Virus record (IMG/VR): IMGVR_UViG_3300011013_000111
Location: 1-21,689 of that record
Direction: 5' to 3' (one strand)
Length of the DNA stretch: 21,689 nucleotides
Origin: a virus
The translations under genes and the position numbers were made by a program. The notes below the pieces were generated by a model. The model had not been told where the DNA came from. It searched no databases and was given only the letters and a program-made list of their open reading frames with translations. Positions 13,218 to 21,689 of the stretch are shown here, piece by piece; position 1 is the stretch's first letter; each line of letters starts with the position of its first letter.

Positions 13218-14063
13218 TTATTTATTTACTATCAACTCATCAGCAAATCGGCCTGTATATGAATGTTCTCCTACATGAGTAATAGGATCAAGAATATAGG
13301 CATAACATTGACCTCCTATATCTTTCCATAATTTGCAAAAAGCAAAGTCTTCTCCTAAATAAGTCTTACTTTCTGGATCATGTAAACAATCAAAAAAATT
13401 CCACATATGAGGTCTATCTTCCAATTTTCCATTAATAATAGTTTTTTGAACTATACCTTTATCAGGATAGGCTTTAATCAATTTTGTAAAAACTTCTCTT
13501 TTAATTAACATACATCCCGTAGGGCTATGAGTTACTTCAATAATTCCATTATCTACCTTTATATCCCCATTATCCTTTACTTTCATAGGATAAGAATTTA
13601 AACCTAAACTTAAATCTTTAGCATTTTTTATTTCCCCTCTTTGAAACTTCTCAAAACCTTTTTCCCACATCATAGTTTTTAAAGGGTAAGGAATTGATAT
13701 TATATCTTTATTTGCGTCAATCATTTTAAAGATAGAAGAGTCATGAAAATCAATATCAGAATCTATAAATAACAAATGAGACATTTTTGATTCTAGAAAT
13801 GCCCCTACACATAAATTTCTTCCTTGTGTAACTAATGAAGATTTTATGAGCTGAAACTGTACTTTTACTTTTTTTCTTAAACATGCTTTTTGAAACTCTA
13901 ATAAAGATTGAGTATAGTGAATAGATACATCACTATGAACAGGAGTGGCTACAAAGATAGAATAAGGAGCAACCTCTAATTCTAATTTAGCATTTTTCCA
14001 CATAGGGTGAATGGCTTTTGAATAGGGTGCGATTGTAGGTCTAGGCTTTATGTAATTTGGCAC
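13218..14063 (-). CDS. GT-A-type glycosyltransferase
   Basis: A 281-residue protein with a GT-A fold signature. FVATPVHSDVS (37-47) is the nucleotide-binding first strand, SSLVTQGRN (75-83) is the conserved donor-site loop, and LLFIDSDIDF (97-106) carries the metal-binding D101-x-D103. Further on are TGCMLIKREVF (182-192), GEDFAFCKLW (237-246) with the acidic pair E238-D239, and a final THVGEH (262-267). This set is typical of phage-encoded family A glycosyltransferases. It would transfer a sugar from a nucleotide-sugar donor to an unknown acceptor, perhaps a virion protein, phage DNA base or host surface glycan. Its start lies 23 bases inside the second glycosyltransferase gene, so the two are probably co-translated. 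Confidence 0.8.
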   Translation of the reverse strand: MPNYIKPRPTIAPYSKAIHPMWKNAKLELEVAPYSIFVATPVHSDVSIHYTQSLLEFQKACLRKKVKVQFQLIKSSLVTQGRNLCVGAFLESKMSHLLFIDSDIDFHDSSIFKMIDANKDIISIPYPLKTMMWEKGFEKFQRGEIKNAKDLSLGLNSYPMKVKDNGDIKVDNGIIEVTHSPTGCMLIKREVFTKLIKAYPDKGIVQKTIINGKLEDRPHMWNFFDCLHDPESKTYLGEDFAFCKLWKDIGGQCYAYILDPITHVGEHSYTGRFADELIVNK

Positions 14064-14979
14064 TTAAGGCTCCTGATAAAAAACTTTCCCATTCCATTCC
14101 TTTTTTATTCCAATTATAAAATCTTTTATAGAATTTGGTTTGTTCTTCTAAATGTTCTTGAATATAATCTTCATGCAAATAACTCGAGGCTACTTTAATA
14201 GCTTCAGCTGTTGCTTGACTCATAATCTCATAGTTTTGAGTGTAGTTAATATAAACAGGCCATTCAGCACAAGTTTCATATAAAGCTCCTAAATTATTTG
14301 TAATTACATGAAGTCCTGCTGATAAAGCTTCTAGAGCTGATATACAAAAAGTTTCTTCAAATATACTTGGATAAACGAACATGTCATAATCAGTAATGTG
14401 TTCTAGTATATATTCATGAGGTTTATAACCAATATAATTTACATTAGGTAATTGTTTAGCTTGTTCATATAGAGGTTGGAATTGCTTATCATTTGCATTT
14501 TTAAAGGCATCTCCATACACTTGACTAGAACTATATACATCTAAAGTAATGTTAGTGTCTTTTAAATGCTGCATAGCGAGTAATAAAATATTTAATCCTC
14601 TCCATGGAGTACAATGATGAAGAATCTTTATAGGATCTCCTTTTTTATAAATTTTTCTTTTAGGAAAATTAGTGCAACCGTTTTTAATAACTATAGACCT
14701 GTCTTCTGGAATGTTAAAAAAATATCTAAACTTTTCATAATTCCAATGAGAATTAAATACATACCAATCATATTCTTTATGTCTTGTGGGATTAGAAAAA
14801 AATTCTTGTAAGTTAGATTGATCATAAGAATTCTTTTGCCATAAAATATTTAATTTAGTAGGATCCAACGGAACTTTCCCAGGAATAGAAGTACAAATTT
14901 GTACTTGATCTAATAATTTTTTAGGACAATGCTTTTGGAGCATTTCCATTTGTAATTCGGTACCGCCTCGTGGATTCAT
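14041..14979 (-). CDS. GT-B-type glycosyltransferase, GT4-like
   Basis: A 312-residue protein with a GT-B layout. The N terminus has RGGTELQ (4-10), a loop commonly seen in GT4 enzymes. The C-terminal Rossmann half carries YIGYKPHEYI (182-191) and FVYPSIFEETFCISALEAL (201-219), including the E209-x7-E217 motif, followed by AGL and VITNNLGA, the donor-site signature. At 312 residues it is shorter than many GT4 enzymes (350-400), mostly in the N-terminal acceptor domain. Function would be sugar transfer to an unknown acceptor. It begins at a TGATG junction with the 65-residue gene and overlaps the GT-A gene. A pair of glycosyltransferases inside a virion module suggests modification of a phage product. 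Confidence 0.82.
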   Translation of the reverse strand: MNPRGGTELQMEMLQKHCPKKLLDQVQICTSIPGKVPLDPTKLNILWQKNSYDQSNLQEFFSNPTRHKEYDWYVFNSHWNYEKFRYFFNIPEDRSIVIKNGCTNFPKRKIYKKGDPIKILHHCTPWRGLNILLLAMQHLKDTNITLDVYSSSQVYGDAFKNANDKQFQPLYEQAKQLPNVNYIGYKPHEYILEHITDYDMFVYPSIFEETFCISALEALSAGLHVITNNLGALYETCAEWPVYINYTQNYEIMSQATAEAIKVASSYLHEDYIQEHLEEQTKFYKRFYNWNKKGMEWESFLSGALSAKLHKA

Positions 14980-15176
14980 CAGTCTTTTGTTTTACCAAAT
15001 AAAGTTAACTTTGCAACTGTTATTTGTAAATCTTGTCTGAAATCCTCATCTTTAGTATCGGTACTTGGGTTAGCTACATCAGCATCAAACTCGGCTTTGT
15101 CTTTATAGACTTTACCTGTTCTTTTATTTTTAACTATTTCTACAGCTTCTGCTGGTATTTTTATTATATCACTCAT
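14979..15176 (-). CDS. Small conserved phage protein, unknown function (65 aa)
   Basis: A 65-residue acidic-to-neutral protein starting MSDIIKIPAEAVEIV and ending LTLFGKTKD. A short helix-strand pattern with GKVYKDKAEFDADV in the middle is seen. The protein has no transmembrane segment or cysteine. It resembles short proteins found beside the 43-residue basic protein in other marine phages as I remember them, but I know no function. The gene is separated from the 43-residue gene by two bases and meets the GT4-like gene at a TGATG junction, so it is surely in the same operon. Confidence 0.6.
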   Translation of the reverse strand: MSDIIKIPAEAVEIVKNKRTGKVYKDKAEFDADVANPSTDTKDEDFRQDLQITVAKLTLFGKTKD

Positions 15177-15178
15177 AA

Positions 15179-15310
15179 TTATTTTTTTCCTTGTTGATTA
15201 TATTTCTTATAACTTCTTTTTTCATGTTTGTTAAGTCTTTTTTTATGCCTTCCAGGACGTTTCCTTGGTTTATCACGAGGAGTAAAGTTTAAAAATTTTA
15301 TCCTAGCCAT
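15179..15310 (-). CDS. Very basic 43-residue protein, conserved in marine phages
   Basis: Translation gives MARIKFLNFTPRDK followed by PRKRPGRHKKRLNKHEKRSY and a KKYNQQGKK end. More than a third of the residues are Lys or Arg and there are two His. The string PRKRPGRHKK...NKHEKR is one I recognise from many marine phage genomes, always as a tiny gene in the structural module. It is not long enough to be reported by standard length filters. Strong positive charge suggests contact with DNA, RNA or a negatively charged virion surface. It overlaps the end of the upstream oxygenase gene by eight bases and is two bases from the 65-residue gene. Function is unknown. Confidence 0.75.
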   Translation of the reverse strand: MARIKFLNFTPRDKPRKRPGRHKKRLNKHEKRSYKKYNQQGKK

Positions 15311-15758
15311 CTTTGTACCAAGCCATAATTACATATCTTTCTCCTAAAATTAATTCGGTAACTTTATGTTCAACAGAAGAGGGAAATAATATAATCTTAC
15401 CTACATGTGGTTCTGCCTTATAACCATCGGGTGGACGACCTACTTCAGTTCTTCCTCCTTGAAAACCATCATTTAAATAGGTGATAGTTGTTTGATCATA
15501 ATTTACGGTATCATTATGCCAATCCTGCGACTCCCCTACCTTCCAAGAGAGTAATTCCATCTTAGTCAGTTGCTTTAAAGGATATATTTTTTTGTAAACA
15601 TTTCTTAAATTTTGAATAGTTAGTTCATTATTTTTTGGATCTATTACATCAAGTATACTTCCGTGGGAAAAAGAAGAAGCGTTTTTTTTATGTCTGTGAA
15701 AATATTTAATTAAAAAATCACAAAGATCTTTACTTAAAAAATTATGTATTTGGATCAT
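15303..15758 (-). CDS. 2-oxoglutarate/Fe(II)-dependent oxygenase, prolyl-4-hydroxylase-like
   Basis: A 151-residue double-stranded beta-helix oxygenase. Iron ligands are H81-x-D83 in DWHNDT and H131 in VEHKV; R141 in GERYVIMAWY is the 2-oxoglutarate-binding arginine ten residues later. GGRTEVGRPPDG and KIILFPSSVEHKV fit the P4H-type core. It should hydroxylate a protein side chain or another small target using O2 and 2-oxoglutarate, giving succinate and CO2. It is short but keeps all four cofactor residues, so it is probably active. Both ends overlap neighbours (an eight-base overlap with the 43-residue gene and a TAATG junction with the 114-residue gene). It is one of four such enzymes within about 5 kb. 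Confidence 0.85.
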   Translation of the reverse strand: MIQIHNFLSKDLCDFLIKYFHRHKKNASSFSHGSILDVIDPKNNELTIQNLRNVYKKIYPLKQLTKMELLSWKVGESQDWHNDTVNYDQTTITYLNDGFQGGRTEVGRPPDGYKAEPHVGKIILFPSSVEHKVTELILGERYVIMAWYKDG

Positions 15759-16102
15759 TAACCGTTTTCCTGCGATCTATCTATTTGAGCATAAGAAACA
15801 ATTCCTTGAATTTCATCTTTAGTGCTACATGTCATTTTTAATACATCACTTTCTTCTAAGACTAAAGTTTTAGTAATTATATCTGTAGTAGCTGAAGCTG
15901 CTATACTTTGATTGCTAATTCTATAGGTTGTAGAAGCAGAGGAATCGGTAACTTGCGTAACTACTGCAAGGGCTCCTACTGCTGATCCATTACTTAGTTG
16001 TATTTGTTTAATTAAACATCTCGCTGAAGCTGGCGAGGTAAGAATATCTACAGTATTTGTAGTAGTTAAATTTATTCCAGCATTTTTATATTGTATTGTC
16101 AT
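15758..16102 (-). CDS. Small beta-rich putative virion protein (114 aa)
   Basis: Starts MTIQYKNAGINLTTTNTVDIL and has alternating hydrophobic and Thr/Ser residues throughout, with repeated short strands and few charges. This fits a beta-sandwich tail, neck or decoration protein. An in-frame ATG four codons upstream (16114) is possible, but the ATG at 16102 overlaps the TGA of the 54-residue gene in an ATGA junction, a pattern used elsewhere in the window, so I prefer it. The gene lies between an oxygenase and a small gene that follows the large stabilisation-protein gene. No enzyme motif is seen and no family is recognised. Confidence 0.55.
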   Translation of the reverse strand: MTIQYKNAGINLTTTNTVDILTSPASARCLIKQIQLSNGSAVGALAVVTQVTDSSASTTYRISNQSIAASATTDIITKTLVLEESDVLKMTCSTKDEIQGIVSYAQIDRSQENG

Positions 16103-16263
16103 GATATAAACCAATTAAACGAATCTTGTTCGTTTTTCAAGTCAAATTGAAAAGAAAAATTAAGTTGATTTTTTAAAGCATTTAATGATTCTAGTATTTG
16201 TCTTTGATTACCTACATCGTATTCATTTCTAGGTTCGGGTATTTGAATGTTTATTTTTGCCAT
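16099..16263 (-). CDS. Short unrecognised phage protein (54 aa)
   Basis: Translation starts MAKINIQIPEPRNEYDVGNQ and continues with a helical LESLNALKNQLNFSFQFD stretch, ending in FIS. The ATG overlaps the TAA of the 714-residue protein (TAATG) and the stop overlaps the ATG of the 114-residue protein (ATGA), so it fills a gap of otherwise 160 bases exactly. A pattern of a short strand, NxYxxxNQRQIL and a helix fits small phage neck or tail-adaptor-associated proteins I have seen in marine phages, but the role is unknown. It is short and therefore easily missed. Confidence 0.65.
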   Translation of the reverse strand: MAKINIQIPEPRNEYDVGNQRQILESLNALKNQLNFSFQFDLKNEQDSFNWFIS

Positions 16264-18407
16264 TATCTCATTCCATCGGGTTGAACATCTGCTCTAAAAG
16301 TACCAAATCTCCAATTTTGATCGGTTGATGTATTAGCTATTTTTAAACTAGCTCCTCTTGATCGAGCTCGTGTATCTACTTTGTCAGTAGAACTATTTAC
16401 TGTAAAAGGTCCGAGAGGCGAGGATGTTTTAGTGTCAGAGGGATAGTCTCTAAGATTTATTGTAACTTGTGCATCTCCTGTAAGTAATTTAAAATCAGGT
16501 ATAAATCTTCTTATACTCATAAAAATTTGTCCATCTGATAAATCAAAATCTCCAGATTGAATAAATGCTGGAATTGCTGTTTTAGTACCCGCTGAATTTA
16601 CTTCATTATTTCCTACTTCGTGAGCAAAATATGTACTCGCTCCATTGGTATTGGTTACACCTTGTATTGTAGGAAATGTAGGAGTATTTGTTGAGTTAAA
16701 TTTAGTGGCGTATGGATTAGGAAATAAAGTTGCATCAACCCAAGTTGTTCTGTCTAAGGAGCCTGTTGTCCATACATTTTCTTCATAATTATAAGTTACT
16801 ATTCTATCTATTTGGGTTGAACCTGATTTAGGATAAAACCAATTTATTTCTCCATATAAATGATTCAAACCTGCATAAATTTGTTCACCACTATTATAAT
16901 TTATTCCTAAATTATCACCCTTATTCGTAAATACAAAATCTTCTACTAAACATGGAAGTGCTTTAACTGTACCATCATAAACAAAAAATCCTCCTGCTTG
17001 TCCCATCCACCACACAGCACCATTAACATATTTAATAGCATGTTGACCAATCAATCCACAACTAGATCCTACTTGTCTAATAGAAAATGTAAAAGGAGGT
17101 CCTACAAACTGTATAACATACGCAGAAGTATCAGTTACAATTAATATATAATCTTTAGCTTTTGCTGCTCCTACAATTGTAACCCCTGAATCTAATCTAA
17201 ATGTTCCTGCAGTATTAACAGAAGTAGGGGAATAATCATTAATATCTTCTTGATCTGAAAATCTAATAAACATTTTATCTTGTGAACCTGTACTTCCTAT
17301 AGTTGTTTCTGTTCCCAAAATAAGTAAATGTCTATCTCTTTCAGAGACAATAGACATTACTGATCTAGTTGGTGCACCACTCACTGCAGTGGCTCGAGTA
17401 GTTAATGCTGCTCCTGAAGATGCAAGAGGAGCCCATTCATAAGTTTTTCCATTTTTAACCGTTGCAATTAAGGTTTCTCCAAAATGATCTAAAGACCAAG
17501 ATGCAGGTTCTATTAATACAGTTGAACTCGTAGAAGCTTCCCCCCATGCTATAAAAAATTCTACGGCAGCACCACTACTATGTGCATCTTTTGAAGATCC
17601 ATTAACTCCTCTAGTAATAGTAGTTAAATCGTTACCTGAAATTCCTGTGTATGAAATTAATTCGGTACCAACTCTTACAACCCCACTTGTAGGAAATCCT
17701 GTAGTGGAAGCCAAAGTTATAGAAGTGCCTACACCCCCCGTACCTGCAGTATCGTTTAATAAAGAACCATTTAAAGTTCCTAAAATTCCTGTTGCTCCTC
17801 CCCATCCAGATGTTCCAAAACCATAACCAAAAGATTGATTTAAAGGACCTACGGTAATGTAAGGATTTATAACAGCAGATCCTGTACCTGAAGTATTACC
17901 AGCAGAATTGGTAGCCATTGTAACTGTAAAAGTGTCAACTGTAGGTACAGTAATTACTTCAAAAGTTTGATCTTCAAAAGCTCCTGTAGTATACCCTGAG
18001 CCTGTTGGGACTGTAACAGAAGTGAATGTAAATAGATCTCCTGCTTCTAATCCATGTGCTACTTTATTGACAGTAACCACAGGGTCATTAAGAGTAGCAT
18101 CAAAAGTTGCACCTGTAATAGCGCTTTCTAAAGGAGTAATATCATAGAATGCTCCTCCATAATAAATAACTAAAACTTTACTCGTTCCTAAAGCCACATA
18201 TTTTCTACCATCTAAATCTGCCCAAACGAGTTGTTCTCTAACTGCTCCTATTAGAGTGCTATTTAAGATTTCTTCCCAGCCCCCTATTTTTTCAGGAAGA
18301 CCGTATCTAAATCTAACAAAATCCCCATCAGTCCATCTTCCTGCAGCACCTGTAGGTGTTAATTGTTTATCAAAGCCTGGTTGTATTTTTACATTTGTTA
18401 ATGGCAT
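16263..18407 (-). CDS. Virion stabilisation/tail-hub-like beta protein (resembling P22 gp10-type phage stabilisation proteins)
   Basis: A 714-residue beta-rich structural protein. The N-terminal signature GRWTDGDFVRFRYGLPEKIGGW (split: residues 23-44) is the start found in a widespread group of phage tail and DNA-stabilisation proteins. Around residues 240-285 lies an inserted beta module with TELISYTGISGNDLTTITRG, which resembles a module of baseplate or tail proteins. The C terminus has RSRGASLKIAN and WRFGTFRADVQPDGMR, a region typical of the same family. It probably closes the portal or forms part of the tail tube in a short-tailed virion. There is no evident ribosome site before the ATG; instead a small hairpin (18413-18427) lies just upstream. 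The family link to P22 gp10 is my best reading, not proven. Confidence 0.6.
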   Translation of the reverse strand: MPLTNVKIQPGFDKQLTPTGAAGRWTDGDFVRFRYGLPEKIGGWEEILNSTLIGAVREQLVWADLDGRKYVALGTSKVLVIYYGGAFYDITPLESAITGATFDATLNDPVVTVNKVAHGLEAGDLFTFTSVTVPTGSGYTTGAFEDQTFEVITVPTVDTFTVTMATNSAGNTSGTGSAVINPYITVGPLNQSFGYGFGTSGWGGATGILGTLNGSLLNDTAGTGGVGTSITLASTTGFPTSGVVRVGTELISYTGISGNDLTTITRGVNGSSKDAHSSGAAVEFFIAWGEASTSSTVLIEPASWSLDHFGETLIATVKNGKTYEWAPLASSGAALTTRATAVSGAPTRSVMSIVSERDRHLLILGTETTIGSTGSQDKMFIRFSDQEDINDYSPTSVNTAGTFRLDSGVTIVGAAKAKDYILIVTDTSAYVIQFVGPPFTFSIRQVGSSCGLIGQHAIKYVNGAVWWMGQAGGFFVYDGTVKALPCLVEDFVFTNKGDNLGINYNSGEQIYAGLNHLYGEINWFYPKSGSTQIDRIVTYNYEENVWTTGSLDRTTWVDATLFPNPYATKFNSTNTPTFPTIQGVTNTNGASTYFAHEVGNNEVNSAGTKTAIPAFIQSGDFDLSDGQIFMSIRRFIPDFKLLTGDAQVTINLRDYPSDTKTSSPLGPFTVNSSTDKVDTRARSRGASLKIANTSTDQNWRFGTFRADVQPDGMR

Positions 18408-18412
18408 ATGCT

Positions 18413-18427
18413 ATGATACCATATCAT
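18413..18427 (-). other. Small hairpin upstream of the stabilisation-protein gene
   Basis: ATGATA-CCA-TATCAT is a perfect 6-bp inverted repeat with a 3-base loop, located between the stop of the 83-residue gene (18428) and the ATG at 18407. No Shine-Dalgarno sequence is visible there. The stem is almost all A:T, so its stability is weak; it may be chance in A+T-rich DNA. Confidence 0.4.
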
Positions 18428-18679
18428 TTATTTTTTTGAAAGATCCACAGGCAATACCTCTAAATCGTTAACAAATTTATTGTTTTCAGGGTCTTTTCTT
18501 TCTTCATCTTTTATTGCTTTTTGTAGATGAGCTATAAGGCCTAAGATACCATTAGTAAGAGTATAAACATTTTCTCGTTTAAAAACAAATTTATTACCAT
18601 TCTTTTTAATGATTTCAAGTTCTTCATCAGTAAAAACAATAGCTCCTTCGGTTACATCGTCATTTAATTGAAATTTCAT
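18428..18679 (-). CDS. Small phage protein, unknown function (83 aa)
   Basis: An 83-residue mixed alpha/beta protein starting MKFQLNDDVTEGAIVFTDEEL; charged throughout, no cysteine and no membrane helix. A single beta hairpin (GNKFVFKRENVYTL) and a helix (NGILGLIAHLQKAIKDEE) are likely. The ribosome site AGGAGG lies eleven bases upstream of ATG, within the end of the preceding oxygenase gene, and is a strong one. It is the last gene before the large stabilisation-protein gene and may be a tail or neck chaperone, but nothing in the sequence proves it. Confidence 0.55.
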   Translation of the reverse strand: MKFQLNDDVTEGAIVFTDEELEIIKKNGNKFVFKRENVYTLTNGILGLIAHLQKAIKDEERKDPENNKFVNDLEVLPVDLSKK

Positions 18680-18681
18680 AA

Positions 18682-19296
18682 TTAGTAATGTCCTCCTTCT
18701 ATAGTATTATAATTGGTTGAAAATATTATTCTAGGTCCTAAATGAGGTATTTTATTATCCGTCATATGTTCTACTGTGGATTTAAATACTAATAGTCGGC
18801 CTGAAGATGCTTTATAATTACAAGTAAGATATGTAAACTCATTAAAGTGTTTTGCGTGATTTATCTCAATAGGATTTAAGGTATCACCTTCTTTCTCTGT
18901 TCTTAGTAATAGAGGATTACTAGAATGATATGAAGGACTTCTAAAGCGTGTAGGTTCGTCTTTTGGGTTTGCTTCTAAATAAAATATTGTACTAATAGCC
19001 CACCCTAGGTGGTTATGCCAATGATTGTTTGTATATGGTTTATAATCAATATACCACGACTCACCAGCTTTCATGGGTTTGTAATTATGGGCGTTTGTAA
19101 AAGTATCTACTTGTTCTTGTTGCCACTCATATAATCTTTTAAATTTTTCATCTTTATGGAGTTGATAATATTGATATTCTTGAGGCCTCTCATCGCTAAT
19201 ATTTAAATACTCTTTATATTTTTTTTGGATTTCATGTATAAAAGGACATTGCGTAACACCGATTACTGTGGGAAACCAACTATGTAAAGTTAACAT
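18682..19296 (-). CDS. 2-oxoglutarate/Fe(II) oxygenase-like protein (TIGR02466-like)
   Basis: A 204-residue protein with a double-stranded beta-helix layout. N91-H92-W93-H94-N95-H96 followed by LGWAISTIFYLEAN resembles the HxHxx...lSg.yYl segment of the TIGR02466/PF13759 oxygenase family, and GRLLVFKSTVEHMTDN (166-181) supplies the distal histidine H177 with R189 following in GPRIIFSTNY. The first iron-ligand pair reads H-x-H rather than H-x-D, so which residues bind iron is unclear. It would hydroxylate an unknown substrate. The gene follows another oxygenase by two bases and is followed by a two-base gap to the 83-residue gene. Confidence in family is good, confidence in activity moderate. 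Confidence 0.75.
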   Translation of the reverse strand: MLTLHSWFPTVIGVTQCPFIHEIQKKYKEYLNISDERPQEYQYYQLHKDEKFKRLYEWQQEQVDTFTNAHNYKPMKAGESWYIDYKPYTNNHWHNHLGWAISTIFYLEANPKDEPTRFRSPSYHSSNPLLLRTEKEGDTLNPIEINHAKHFNEFTYLTCNYKASSGRLLVFKSTVEHMTDNKIPHLGPRIIFSTNYNTIEGGHY

Positions 19297-19298
19297 AA

Positions 19299-19835
19299 TT
19301 ATTTATTAACAGCTCCTTCTCCTAATAGTTTTCGTTTGTCTAATGCCCATTCTTGATAAGGTCCATTTGCATTTACATAATGTAAAAAACATTGATGATG
19401 CCAATCTCCTAAAAACTCATTTCTCCAATGCCACCAATCACACCCTTTATATATAACTGCATCTCCATGCTCTAGTAGCACTTTCTCTCCATCAATGTAT
19501 ATAGGCCATTCAAAAGTTTTACAGCTATCTATACTAACGGTTACACTTATTTCACAAGATGGTCTATCTCTATGTTTTTTTAAAACTGAATATTTATTAT
19601 AAATTCTAAAAAATGAATAAGTAGGAAATAATTTTAGCTGCGTTTTTTCTTCCATTAATTTATGTTTATTTCCTAAAATAGATTCAAACACCCAATCTCC
19701 ATAACCCCCAGAAGAAGCACCATCTTGCAAATCAAATTGTGTGATATTATTTCTTATATAAATTTTACCGTAAGTAGATAATAATTTTCTTTCTGATTCG
19801 TCTAAAAAATTTTTAACTACTATATATCTATCCAT
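19299..19835 (-). CDS. 2-oxoglutarate/Fe(II) oxygenase-like protein, variant cofactor site
   Basis: A protein of 178 residues from the ATG at 19835 (TAATG overlap with the upstream stop); an in-frame ATG at 19847 would add four residues. It starts MDRYIVVKNFLDESE, a common oxygenase opening. In the longer numbering H92-x-D94 lies in LKKHRDRPSCEISVTVS, and H140 in DWWHWRN is the distal histidine. Ten residues later, where arginine normally anchors 2-oxoglutarate, the sequence is H150-H151 in WHHQCFLHYV. Either another residue anchors the co-substrate or this enzyme uses a variant site. The target is unknown. It is the third of four such enzymes in the module and sits between two others. Confidence 0.7.
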   Translation of the reverse strand: MDRYIVVKNFLDESERKLLSTYGKIYIRNNITQFDLQDGASSGGYGDWVFESILGNKHKLMEEKTQLKLFPTYSFFRIYNKYSVLKKHRDRPSCEISVTVSIDSCKTFEWPIYIDGEKVLLEHGDAVIYKGCDWWHWRNEFLGDWHHQCFLHYVNANGPYQEWALDKRKLLGEGAVNK

Positions 19836-20407
19836 TATGGCATCCATGCTACAACTACATACCTATTTCCGCTAGTCACGGGATTAACATGATGAGTAAA
19901 TATGAAATTACTTGGGAACATAATACACATATTTTTACTTATTTTTAATGTTTTGGTATGTGTTTTAGAAAAATGAAATGTTATTTCGCCACCTTCATAA
20001 TCATCGTTTAAAACAAGAATATAACTGAACTGTCTTGGAGTTGTGTAATGATAATCCGAATGTCGCTCATAAAAATTATCTTTGTCATATTTTAACAAAT
20101 TTACTTCCAAATTTTCTGTTACTTGGGTATAAGCAGTATTGAGGGTATTAAAATATTCAAAAGTAAATTTTAAAAATCTATGTCTTAAAAAATTAAACCA
20201 AAAAATAGATGTAGACTTTTGATTACCTAAATTGGAAATAAACTTTGAGTTAACTTTTCTCATCTTTTCATCGATCACGTACTTTTCTTTTAGCACTACA
20301 GCAGCTGATTCCCATTCAATATCATTTTTCATATATTGAAAAAGTTTTTTTAAAGTAACTTCATCTAAAAAATTTTCTTTTATAAAAACATAATTCTCTA
20401 TTTCCAT
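19835..20407 (-). CDS. 2-oxoglutarate/Fe(II) oxygenase, prolyl-4-hydroxylase-like
   Basis: A 190-residue enzyme. YERHSDYHY (113-121) gives H116-x-D118, EGGEITFHF follows as the core strand, and FTHHVNPVTSGNRYVVVAW (170-188) supplies distal H172 and the 2-oxoglutarate-binding R182. These match the P4H-type (Fe2OG) pattern H-x-D...H-x10-R fully, so it is probably active. It opens with NYVFIKENFLDE, as in the neighbouring oxygenases. The gene overlaps the 260-residue gene by ten bases at its start and the next oxygenase by one base (TAATG), so the three genes are made together. Substrate unknown; protein hydroxylation is the most usual activity of this branch. Confidence 0.88.
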   Translation of the reverse strand: MEIENYVFIKENFLDEVTLKKLFQYMKNDIEWESAAVVLKEKYVIDEKMRKVNSKFISNLGNQKSTSIFWFNFLRHRFLKFTFEYFNTLNTAYTQVTENLEVNLLKYDKDNFYERHSDYHYTTPRQFSYILVLNDDYEGGEITFHFSKTHTKTLKISKNMCIMFPSNFIFTHHVNPVTSGNRYVVVAWMP

Positions 20408-21180
20408 GATGTTTTATTTTTTAACCAAAATCTATTTTTATACCTATTAAGAAATTGTAGACTCCAAAAACTTGATTGATGTTTCTCCTGTATACTGTCA
20501 TAAGATTTTATTTTCATTTGCCAATCGTCTCTTTTATAAGGTATTACTTGGACATAGGGAAGACCTTTGTTTAAGGTTAGATTAACTTCCCCATGTTTTT
20601 GATAATTCATTACAATAGGAAAATTTATTTCTTGAAAATAGTATGTATCAGTATGAACAATTGCTGGAATAATAGTAAAATAATCCTGAGAAGGATTATT
20701 AAGAGGATTAACAAATAAGCACGAATATCCCCTTGGTGTTTTTATTTTCCATGGATTGTTTATTTTTAAAAATGGATAATCCATACCTCCATTTTTCTCA
20801 ATAAGTGGAGATCCTTCTACTTGTACAGGAGGATGAGGTTTAGGGTCGGCAATATTCACCCCTTTTGATTTCATTACATGGTTAACCCCTGATTCATCAA
20901 GAGAAGTCAAAATTCTTGTAAGAGGTTTACCCTCCTTATTTCTTTTAACACCAAACTCAATTTTATAATCGACAGGTAATTTTAATAAATAACCCGTAGT
21001 CATACTTTCTAAAAAAGGCATACAACCTTTAATAGTACGTTGGTGTGTTAAATCATTAGGGTCAATTTTACCGTGGTCTAATTTTTTATACCACTCGGGT
21101 ATATTAGTTTTAATGGGTGTGGGATGATCTTCGTGTAAATCGTAATAGTCTTTAGGAGCTAAAAACTCAATTGTTTTCAT
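20398..21180 (-). CDS. Conserved phage protein of unknown function (260 aa)
   Basis: A soluble 260-residue protein. The N terminus MKTIEFLAPKDYY is followed by IPEWYKK (27-33) and TIKGCMPFLESMTTGYLLKL (49-68). I recall similar strings (an I-P-x-W-Y-K box followed by T-x-K-x-C-x-P-F/I-x-D/E-x-x-T-x-G-Y) in unnamed proteins of cyanophages and other marine phages, where they accompany oxygenase genes. A Pro-rich segment ADPKPHPPVQ lies around residues 111-120. No catalytic motif is evident. It overlaps the P4H-like gene by ten bases, so a joint role with the oxygenase (partner or substrate) is possible. The gene's ribosome site lies in the loop of a perfect hairpin (21180-21200), suggesting control of its translation. 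Confidence 0.6.
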   Translation of the reverse strand: MKTIEFLAPKDYYDLHEDHPTPIKTNIPEWYKKLDHGKIDPNDLTHQRTIKGCMPFLESMTTGYLLKLPVDYKIEFGVKRNKEGKPLTRILTSLDESGVNHVMKSKGVNIADPKPHPPVQVEGSPLIEKNGGMDYPFLKINNPWKIKTPRGYSCLFVNPLNNPSQDYFTIIPAIVHTDTYYFQEINFPIVMNYQKHGEVNLTLNKGLPYVQVIPYKRDDWQMKIKSYDSIQEKHQSSFWSLQFLNRYKNRFWLKNKTSWK

Positions 21181-21200
21181 TTTAGTGTCCTACACTAAAA
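21180..21200 (-). promoter_or_regulatory. Hairpin presenting the ribosome binding site of the 260-aa gene
   Basis: In the mRNA sense the sequence is TTTTAGTGT-AGG-ACACTAAAA followed by TG of the start codon: a perfect 9-bp inverted repeat with a 3-base loop. The loop AGG together with the neighbouring A is the Shine-Dalgarno core, and the last base of the stem is the A of the ATG. Such hairpins can hide or present a start site and be bound by a repressor protein. The stem has only two G:C pairs, so stability is modest. It lies in the 38-base gap after the 143-residue gene. Confidence 0.5.
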
Positions 21201-21218
21201 ACTTATTTAGAGCAAGAA

Positions 21219-21650
21219 TTATCTAAATGTAGTTATCCAAGTAATTCCCTGATCCTCTGCTATTTCAGGAACAGTTTTTTTAATAGGGTATGACAATCCA
21301 GAAAGATCTTTACTTTTTAAAGAATTAACTTGAGCAGTAAATTCTGCATCTACACCATCGGCATTTAAAGTATCTATATATGCTTGTAGATGTTCTAAAG
21401 TATCCCAAGTTGGAATATCGTTTTCACTTTTTCCATCAACATAAGAAGGATTACTTAAAACTATATTTCCTCCATCATCATAGGATGCAGTTTTTCTTTC
21501 TAATCTAATATCATTGTATTGTGAATCATTAATTTCACACACTTGATATCCTATTTCTGTAAAAGAAGTAATATCTGTACCAGTAGGTTTTAAATGGACT
21601 AAAGTTCCTCCCTGATTAGGGTTATTTTTATTAAAAATTGCATAAGCCAT
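21219..21650 (-). CDS. Putative tail/virion protein, unknown function (143 aa)
   Basis: A 143-residue protein starting MAYAIFNKNNPNQGGTLVHL, with alternating strands and helices, a GGNIVLSNPSY beta turn, and an acidic middle (THE EHLQAYIDTLNADGVDAEF stretch near residues 86-105). It ends in ITWITTFR. Proteins with this start are familiar from the tail-gene region of marine phages, often next to fibre-like genes, but I can assign no function. It lies between a gene whose C terminus is Gly/Trp-rich (right edge) and the 260-residue gene. Confidence 0.5.
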   Translation of the reverse strand: MAYAIFNKNNPNQGGTLVHLKPTGTDITSFTEIGYQVCEINDSQYNDIRLERKTASYDDGGNIVLSNPSYVDGKSENDIPTWDTLEHLQAYIDTLNADGVDAEFTAQVNSLKSKDLSGLSYPIKKTVPEIAEDQGITWITTFR

Positions 21651-21653
21651 ATT

Positions 21654-21689
21654 TTAACCCTCCCATATCCATAACCAGCCAGCGCCACC
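21654..21689 (-). CDS. C-terminal end of an upstream gene (partial), Gly/Trp-rich tail
   Basis: The frame is open from the right edge and ends in GGAGWLWIWEG followed by TAA, three bases before the ATG of the 143-residue gene. The Gly/Trp-rich end and the operon-like spacing indicate the last codons of a structural gene that continues beyond the window. Only eleven residues are visible, so no family can be named; a tail or fibre protein is a reasonable guess from position. Confidence 0.55.
   Translation of the reverse strand, partial: GGAGWLWIWEG

Follow-up and report, generated by a model that had tools for sequence, protein, structure and literature searches.

Why would a marine phage carry, among its virion genes, four genes for 2-oxoglutarate (2OG)-Fe(II) oxygenase-like proteins and two for glycosyltransferases, and on what would these enzymes act? 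The question is raised by virus record IMGVR_UViG_3300011013_000111, whose full 21,689 bases are called the window here. It is a piece of the genome of an HTVC023P-type pelagiphage, which infects SAR11-type bacteria of the ocean, and Pelagibacter phages HTVC023P and HTVC027P rank as its best relatives. A preliminary description of the sequence had proposed that the oxygenases hydroxylate virion proteins and that the glycosyltransferase pair then glycosylates the hydroxyls. We find that the glycosyltransferases are a separate module and that the oxygenase cassette follows a glycine-rich (Gly-rich) tail fiber. The reading that we favor, at a probability of roughly 40%, is that the cassette enzymes hydroxylate or otherwise oxidize the Gly-rich tip of this fiber, their putative substrate, and so change host binding.

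The whole block, between the fiber end (21689) and the glycosyltransferases (13218), lies on the minus strand, with positions and strand of all enzyme genes as first described. Genes are named below by protein length or lower coordinate, and P4H stands for prolyl-4-hydroxylase:

21654..21689, minus: final 11 codons plus the stop (GGAGWLWIWEG*) of the gene for a Gly-rich tail fiber, the remainder outside the window; families phrog_28766/892/863
21219..21650, minus: 143-aa protein, adjoining the fiber and the 260-aa gene in most relatives
20398..21180, minus: 260-aa protein of phrog_7084, distantly related to DUF6065; predicted fold dUTPase-like
19835..20407, minus: P4H-type 2OG-Fe(II) oxygenase, H116-x-D118...H172...R182 (PF13640, E 8e-16)
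19299..19847, minus: phrog_2954 'ferrochelatase', with a predicted 2OG-type double-stranded beta-helix (DSBH) fold, H92-x-D94...H140 and Gln152
18682..19296, minus: PF13759 (TIGR02466-like) oxygenase, H94-x-H96...H177, an optional member
18428..18679, minus: 83-aa protein, usually after the 19299 gene
16263..18407, minus: virion structural protein (phrog_3287, E 1e-88), 'neck' here, the start of the conserved core block
15303..15758, minus: second P4H-type oxygenase, H81-x-D83...H131...R141 (PF13640, E 5e-9)
14041..14979, minus: GT4 glycosyltransferase, core gene (PF00534, E 5.5e-15)
13218..14063, minus: GT-A-like glycosyltransferase, core gene (phrog_1574; weak Anp1 match)

The oxygenase cassette follows a glycine-rich tail fiber

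In relatives of the window, a tail fiber of about 400–430 aa, which opens with conserved residues (MASSYSTDLKLELMVTGENAGTWG) and ends in a Gly-rich C-terminal tip, lies directly upstream of the 143-aa gene, usually 2–7 nt away. A full 413-aa fiber gene is present in contig L011 (4578–5819), which is identical to the window across the shared 1,358 nt. Among dereplicated clusters, a Gly-rich fiber was found upstream of the cassette within 1.5 kb in 67 and at 1.5–6 kb in 3; 21 had none and 24 had no room for one. Between phages whose 260-aa proteins are 40–80% identical, fiber tips average 35–49% identity and fiber bases 56–61%, figures that are approximate because low-complexity tips align poorly; by these alignments, the tip appears more divergent than the base.

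Profiles built for 18 genes of the window, searched against 168 loci, revealed two blocks. One is constant and runs neck, 54 aa, 118 aa, 65 aa, GT4, GT-A, 296 aa and onwards; the 16263 gene confirms that a virion structural gene lies among the enzyme genes. The second runs 143 aa, 260 aa, P4H, 19299, 83 aa. Its first four genes keep this order in dozens of dereplicated loci, so chance does not account for the arrangement: the 143-aa gene adjoins the front of the 260-aa gene in 69/74 such loci, a P4H-type gene follows the 260-aa gene in all 76 of 76, and in 67 of 68 cases a 19299 relative lies no more than 1.5 kb from another oxygenase.

The same order reappears with different fiber genes in HTVC033P, HTVC023P, Mosig, S-RIM44, syn9/Syn10, S-SM1 and S-CREM1. 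In HTVC033P and HTVC023P, oxygenases and 19299 relatives come after genes with strong Gly_rich_2 matches (E as low as 1e-16 and 7e-24). Where the trio of 260-aa, P4H and 19299 genes is missing, the PF13759 gene comes after a different Gly-rich protein, often by about 10 nt. In eight non-redundant phages that carry Gly_rich_2, the 10 kb downstream of a Gly_rich_2 gene hold 34 of the 81 oxygenase genes, where rotation predicts 6.7; none of 20,000 rotations reached that count. These phages were picked for phrog_2954 or its kin, the cyanophages share inherited synteny, and both sets of genes are found in late regions.

This arrangement bears on the view that these are auxiliary metabolic genes, whose oxygenases act on host metabolites, 2OG levels or DNA repair and whose proximity to fibers marks a recombination hot spot. 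Cyanophage oxygenases have been published as acting in 2OG/nitrogen signaling or DNA repair (PMC3037559), genes of HTVC023P-type phages are presented as auxiliary metabolic genes in two papers (PMC9599517; PMC11561400), and many cyanophage oxygenases are far from fibers. However, the run from fiber through the 143-aa, 260-aa and P4H genes to 19299 is tight, usually beginning 2–7 nt after the fiber, and it is this tight order that recurs with different fibers; we consider the metabolic account somewhat unlikely. In the window, the overlaps are longer than the one to three bases first reported, at 10 nt between the 260-aa and 19835 genes and 13 nt between 19835 and 19299; the gaps are 2 nt, and a promoter and terminator scan of the window stayed at chance level.

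The phage 'ferrochelatase' has a predicted oxygenase fold

The preliminary count of four oxygenases needed a test of fold, since no 2OG family recognizes 19299 at the sequence level: in Pfam, PHROGs and NCBIfam, it matches only phrog_2954 and phrog_3531, both labeled 'ferrochelatase'. An AlphaFold (AF2) model built from 51 viral relatives has a mean predicted local distance difference test (pLDDT) score of 93 and forms a double-stranded beta-helix. In Foldseek and VIA searches, the top matches were 2OG-Fe(II) oxygenases and other proteins related to the DSBH type, namely 6n1f, the Pseudomonas putida P4H with EF-Tu, PHD2 and AlkB proteins (E 6e-8 for 6n1f in Foldseek, which also gave 4iw3 and PHD2; Z 14–16 in VIA). 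Protein hydroxylases are among the closest solved structures. A PDB sequence search with the 19299 and 260-aa profiles gave no match.

The predicted fold and the H-x-D...H triad are shared with prolyl-4-hydroxylases such as PHD2 and the P. putida enzyme: H92, D94 and H140 are invariant in the 51 relatives and likewise in cyanophage and pelagiphage proteins annotated as ferrochelatase. The 'variant site' ascribed to this protein is, therefore, not in its iron triad but in its 2OG anchor. Unlike prolyl-4-hydroxylases, it does not have the 2OG-binding Arg or Lys about ten residues past the distal His, a position held by Gln152 in 98% of relatives; R81, R95 and R142, invariant or nearly so, might stand in for it. 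We class 19299 by predicted fold as a 2OG-Fe(II)-type (DSBH) oxygenase, an assignment that does not extend to 2OG dependence, since Gln at the anchor position leaves the cosubstrate mode uncertain.

Identity as a ferrochelatase (HemH) was considered and rejected. No ferrochelatase profile occurs among the Pfam matches of 51 phrog_2954 members at E ≤ 1, and 19299 is a 182-aa beta-helix protein, whereas HemH is a two-domain alpha/beta chelatase of at least about 300 aa. The name matters because the two papers cited above, which describe partnered oxygenase and 'ferrochelatase' genes in the same phage group and of the same kinds as in the window, call phrog_2954 a ferrochelatase and rest an iron or metabolic reading partly on that name (PMC9599517; PMC11561400). 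The predicted fold contradicts the name and, with it, the iron and heme side of the metabolic account. That a 2OG oxygenase stands beside every such 'ferrochelatase' was already noted (Wittmers 2022, PMC9599517), and in the consulted passages of the two papers we found no link to a Gly-rich fiber, the 260-aa protein or cyanophage halogenase cassettes.

The remaining oxygenases fall into two kinds by profile searches with Pfam, PHROGs and NCBIfam. The genes at 15303 and 19835 are complete P4H-type oxygenases as first described, both with PF13640 above cut-off and H-x-D...H...R; in the 19835 alignment, H116 and H172 are conserved at 100% and D118 and R182 at 87%. P4H profiles do not separate the 15303 type from the 19835 type, so 'P4H-type' is a generic label here. 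The 15303 gene is optional, inserted where the 118-aa and 65-aa genes would otherwise meet; most relatives have no oxygenase in that slot. For 18682, the suggested likeness to TIGR02466 holds at the level of PF13759 (32.1 bits against a cut-off of 27) and is weak for TIGR02466 itself (18.8 against 62.5 bits). Its metal motif is altered, H94-x-H96...H177, with H-x-H...H in place of H-x-D...H in all 18 PF13759-type relatives, a possible three-His iron site. Profiles or, in the case of 19299, the predicted fold place all four oxygenases in the 2OG-Fe(II) superfamily.

The glycosyltransferases form a separate module

The 14041 gene is a clear GT4 glycosyltransferase; the 13218 gene is GT-A-like only by weak similarity, through phrog_1574 and a Pfam match to Anp1 (E 6e-5) that stays below the cut-off. 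The GT4 gene comes immediately before GT-A in 35/36 dereplicated loci, and the pair is a fixed element of the core block that persists in phages without the trio. Homologs of the pair occur in phiM12, Cr30, DLP6, vB_OspM_OC and RHph_I1_18; PF13640 and PF13759 have no match in four of these, and DLP6 has three. Conversely, GT-A is missing from 10 of 16 oxygenase-bearing phages.

These distributions bear directly on hydroxylation followed by glycosylation. In its favor, all of the genes lie in one late block of this phage, and of the 25 dereplicated glycosyltransferase-bearing loci whose sequence extends 3 kb or more past the neck gene, 19 carry the full trio, 3 lack the 260-aa gene but keep 19299 and P4H, and in 3 only the PF13759 gene is present. 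A further arrangement also speaks for it: in S-SCSM2R (locus L175, 5986–12489), a fused phrog_2954-P4H gene stands beside three glycosyltransferases, one of them GT25, followed by a radical SAM maturase and more sugar genes. However, the glycosyltransferase pair and the oxygenases are retained independently in both directions, which is the very point on which the preliminary description had let its proposal turn, and the immediate neighbor of the trio is the fiber, not the glycosyltransferases. Because each set occurs without the other, the coupling is no general rule; it is possible in this one phage, but we judge it quite unlikely. The broader part of that description, several 2OG oxygenases in a virion module with virion proteins as the likelier class of target, is supported.

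Modification of virion DNA bases by the glycosyltransferase pair, and perhaps by some of the oxygenases, is improbable to a similar degree. GT-A homologs lie by sliding-clamp or clamp-loader genes in the five phages named above, which hints at DNA, and a thymidine hypermodification system is described for some HTVC023P-type clades (PMC9599517). Moreover, in cyanophages P-SSM7, S-P4 and Syn30 (L178, L180 and L181), the phrog_2954 gene sits between the dam DNA methylase and clamp-loader gp62 genes. Against this, the pelagiphage genes sit in a structural block, a Pfam scan gave no TET/JBP family match for any window oxygenase, and the window GT-A is only 25–32% identical to its clamp-linked homologs. 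In several T4-like phages (L267–L271), the GT-A homologs lie near sliding-clamp genes and GT4 homologs are found far away in the same genomes, a possible DNA glycosylation pair.

Related cassettes with halogenases in cyanophages

In S-RIM44, syn9 and S-CREM1, Gly-rich fiber genes are followed by one or more Trp halogenases, a homolog of the 260-aa protein, 2OG oxygenases and phrog_2954. The homology of the 260-aa proteins was confirmed by hhalign (probability 99.2, E 2e-19). In Syn10, the cassette gene CPUG_00131 encodes the iodinating halogenase VirX1 (PDB 6qgm), with a 260-aa homolog as its 3' neighbor; no natural substrate has been reported for VirX1, and a review table gives it no natural product (PMC8407142). 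These cyanomyovirus islands (syn9, Syn10, S-RIM44 and S-CREM1) share the Gly-rich fiber, 260-aa homolog, oxygenases and phrog_2954 with the pelagiphages but add Trp halogenases and JmjC and DUF6445 proteins; a halogenase profile had no match in HTVC023P, HTVC027P or HTVC033P. In pelagimyophage Mosig (L171, 5120–10205), heme oxygenase and PcyA-like genes lie within the oxygenase cassette, between fiber and neck.

A more tentative extension is that unrelated marine phages share a portable oxidative cassette that would diversify a Gly-rich receptor-binding tip post-translationally. It would combine 2OG-type oxygenases with a DUF6065-like partner and, in the case of cyanophages, also with flavin halogenases, VirX1 among them. 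If so, VirX1 and the many phage 2OG oxygenases would gain a native substrate. The gene families and their clustering are already known; in the open-access literature, we did not find the re-identification of phrog_2954, its links to Gly-rich fibers and halogenase cassettes or the proposed substrate. Searches of the same literature for 2OG, tail fiber and post-translational modification returned only large-virus papers, and none was found on DUF6065 or on SapC with Trp halogenases.

Oxidation of the fiber tip as the favored reading

We propose that the 18682–21650 block belongs to a late operon and encodes 2OG-Fe(II) oxygenases along with a DUF6065-like companion, immediately downstream of the gene for a fiber that would bind the receptor. 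The oxygenases would be made late, together with the fiber, and would hydroxylate or otherwise oxidize residues of its divergent Gly-rich tip; the oxidized tip, as the putative receptor-binding part, would then alter host binding. Presenting or chaperoning the tip may fall to the 260-aa and 143-aa proteins. On this reading, phages would tune host recognition through chemistry as well as sequence.

Several observations weigh against this proposal. In HTVC027P and in four other loci (L105, L119, L129 and L136), the oxygenases are inverted onto the opposite strand and no Gly-rich fiber was found. The 15303 gene sits elsewhere, not beside the fiber; many cyanophage oxygenases also lie away from fibers; in S-SCSM1, most stand at a distance from its Gly-rich gene; and phrog_2954 beside dam and gp62 in three cyanophages, away from a fiber cassette, may have a different substrate there. 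Because tail-fiber regions are recombination hot spots, proximity to the fiber may mirror where cargo lands, and because synteny is inherited within each phage family, the loci are not independent. To our knowledge, the Gly-rich adhesins of T-even phages function without such enzymes.

Companion proteins

The 143-aa protein, which has no PHROG match, is a possible fiber chaperone. For the 260-aa family, 19 of 41 members match PF19541 (DUF6065; best E 6e-5), and the window protein itself does not. Its predicted fold is that of the dUTPase superfamily (Z about 10 over ~120 residues; Foldseek E only 4e-3). Unlike dUTPases, however, the family does not conserve the first Asp of the VDTD motif, which is His in the window protein, and adds a large insertion; at the catalytic Asp of motif 3, the window protein has His and the family varies. 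Because the conserved catalytic Asp is absent, the protein is probably not an active dUTPase.

The suggestion that the 260-aa protein is itself a Pro-rich substrate of the oxygenases is not supported: the Pro-rich stretch is not conserved in the family, the predicted fold is dUTPase-like, and bacterial relatives have no oxygenase neighbor. Four oxygenase profiles had no match within 8 kb in 79 of 80 bacterial loci, and the one locus with a match, L187, is on a phage contig that had been binned with Maricaulis. The chromosomal homologs (L188–L266) are mostly alphaproteobacterial, and their recurring neighbors resemble, by eye, an extracytoplasmic function (ECF) sigma factor and an anti-sigma factor. 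Haloarchaeal HF-type viruses also encode a 260-aa homolog; in HRTV-7 (L168, 8893–9783), it comes directly after thymidylate synthase, a suggestive placement that fits the dUTPase-like predicted fold.

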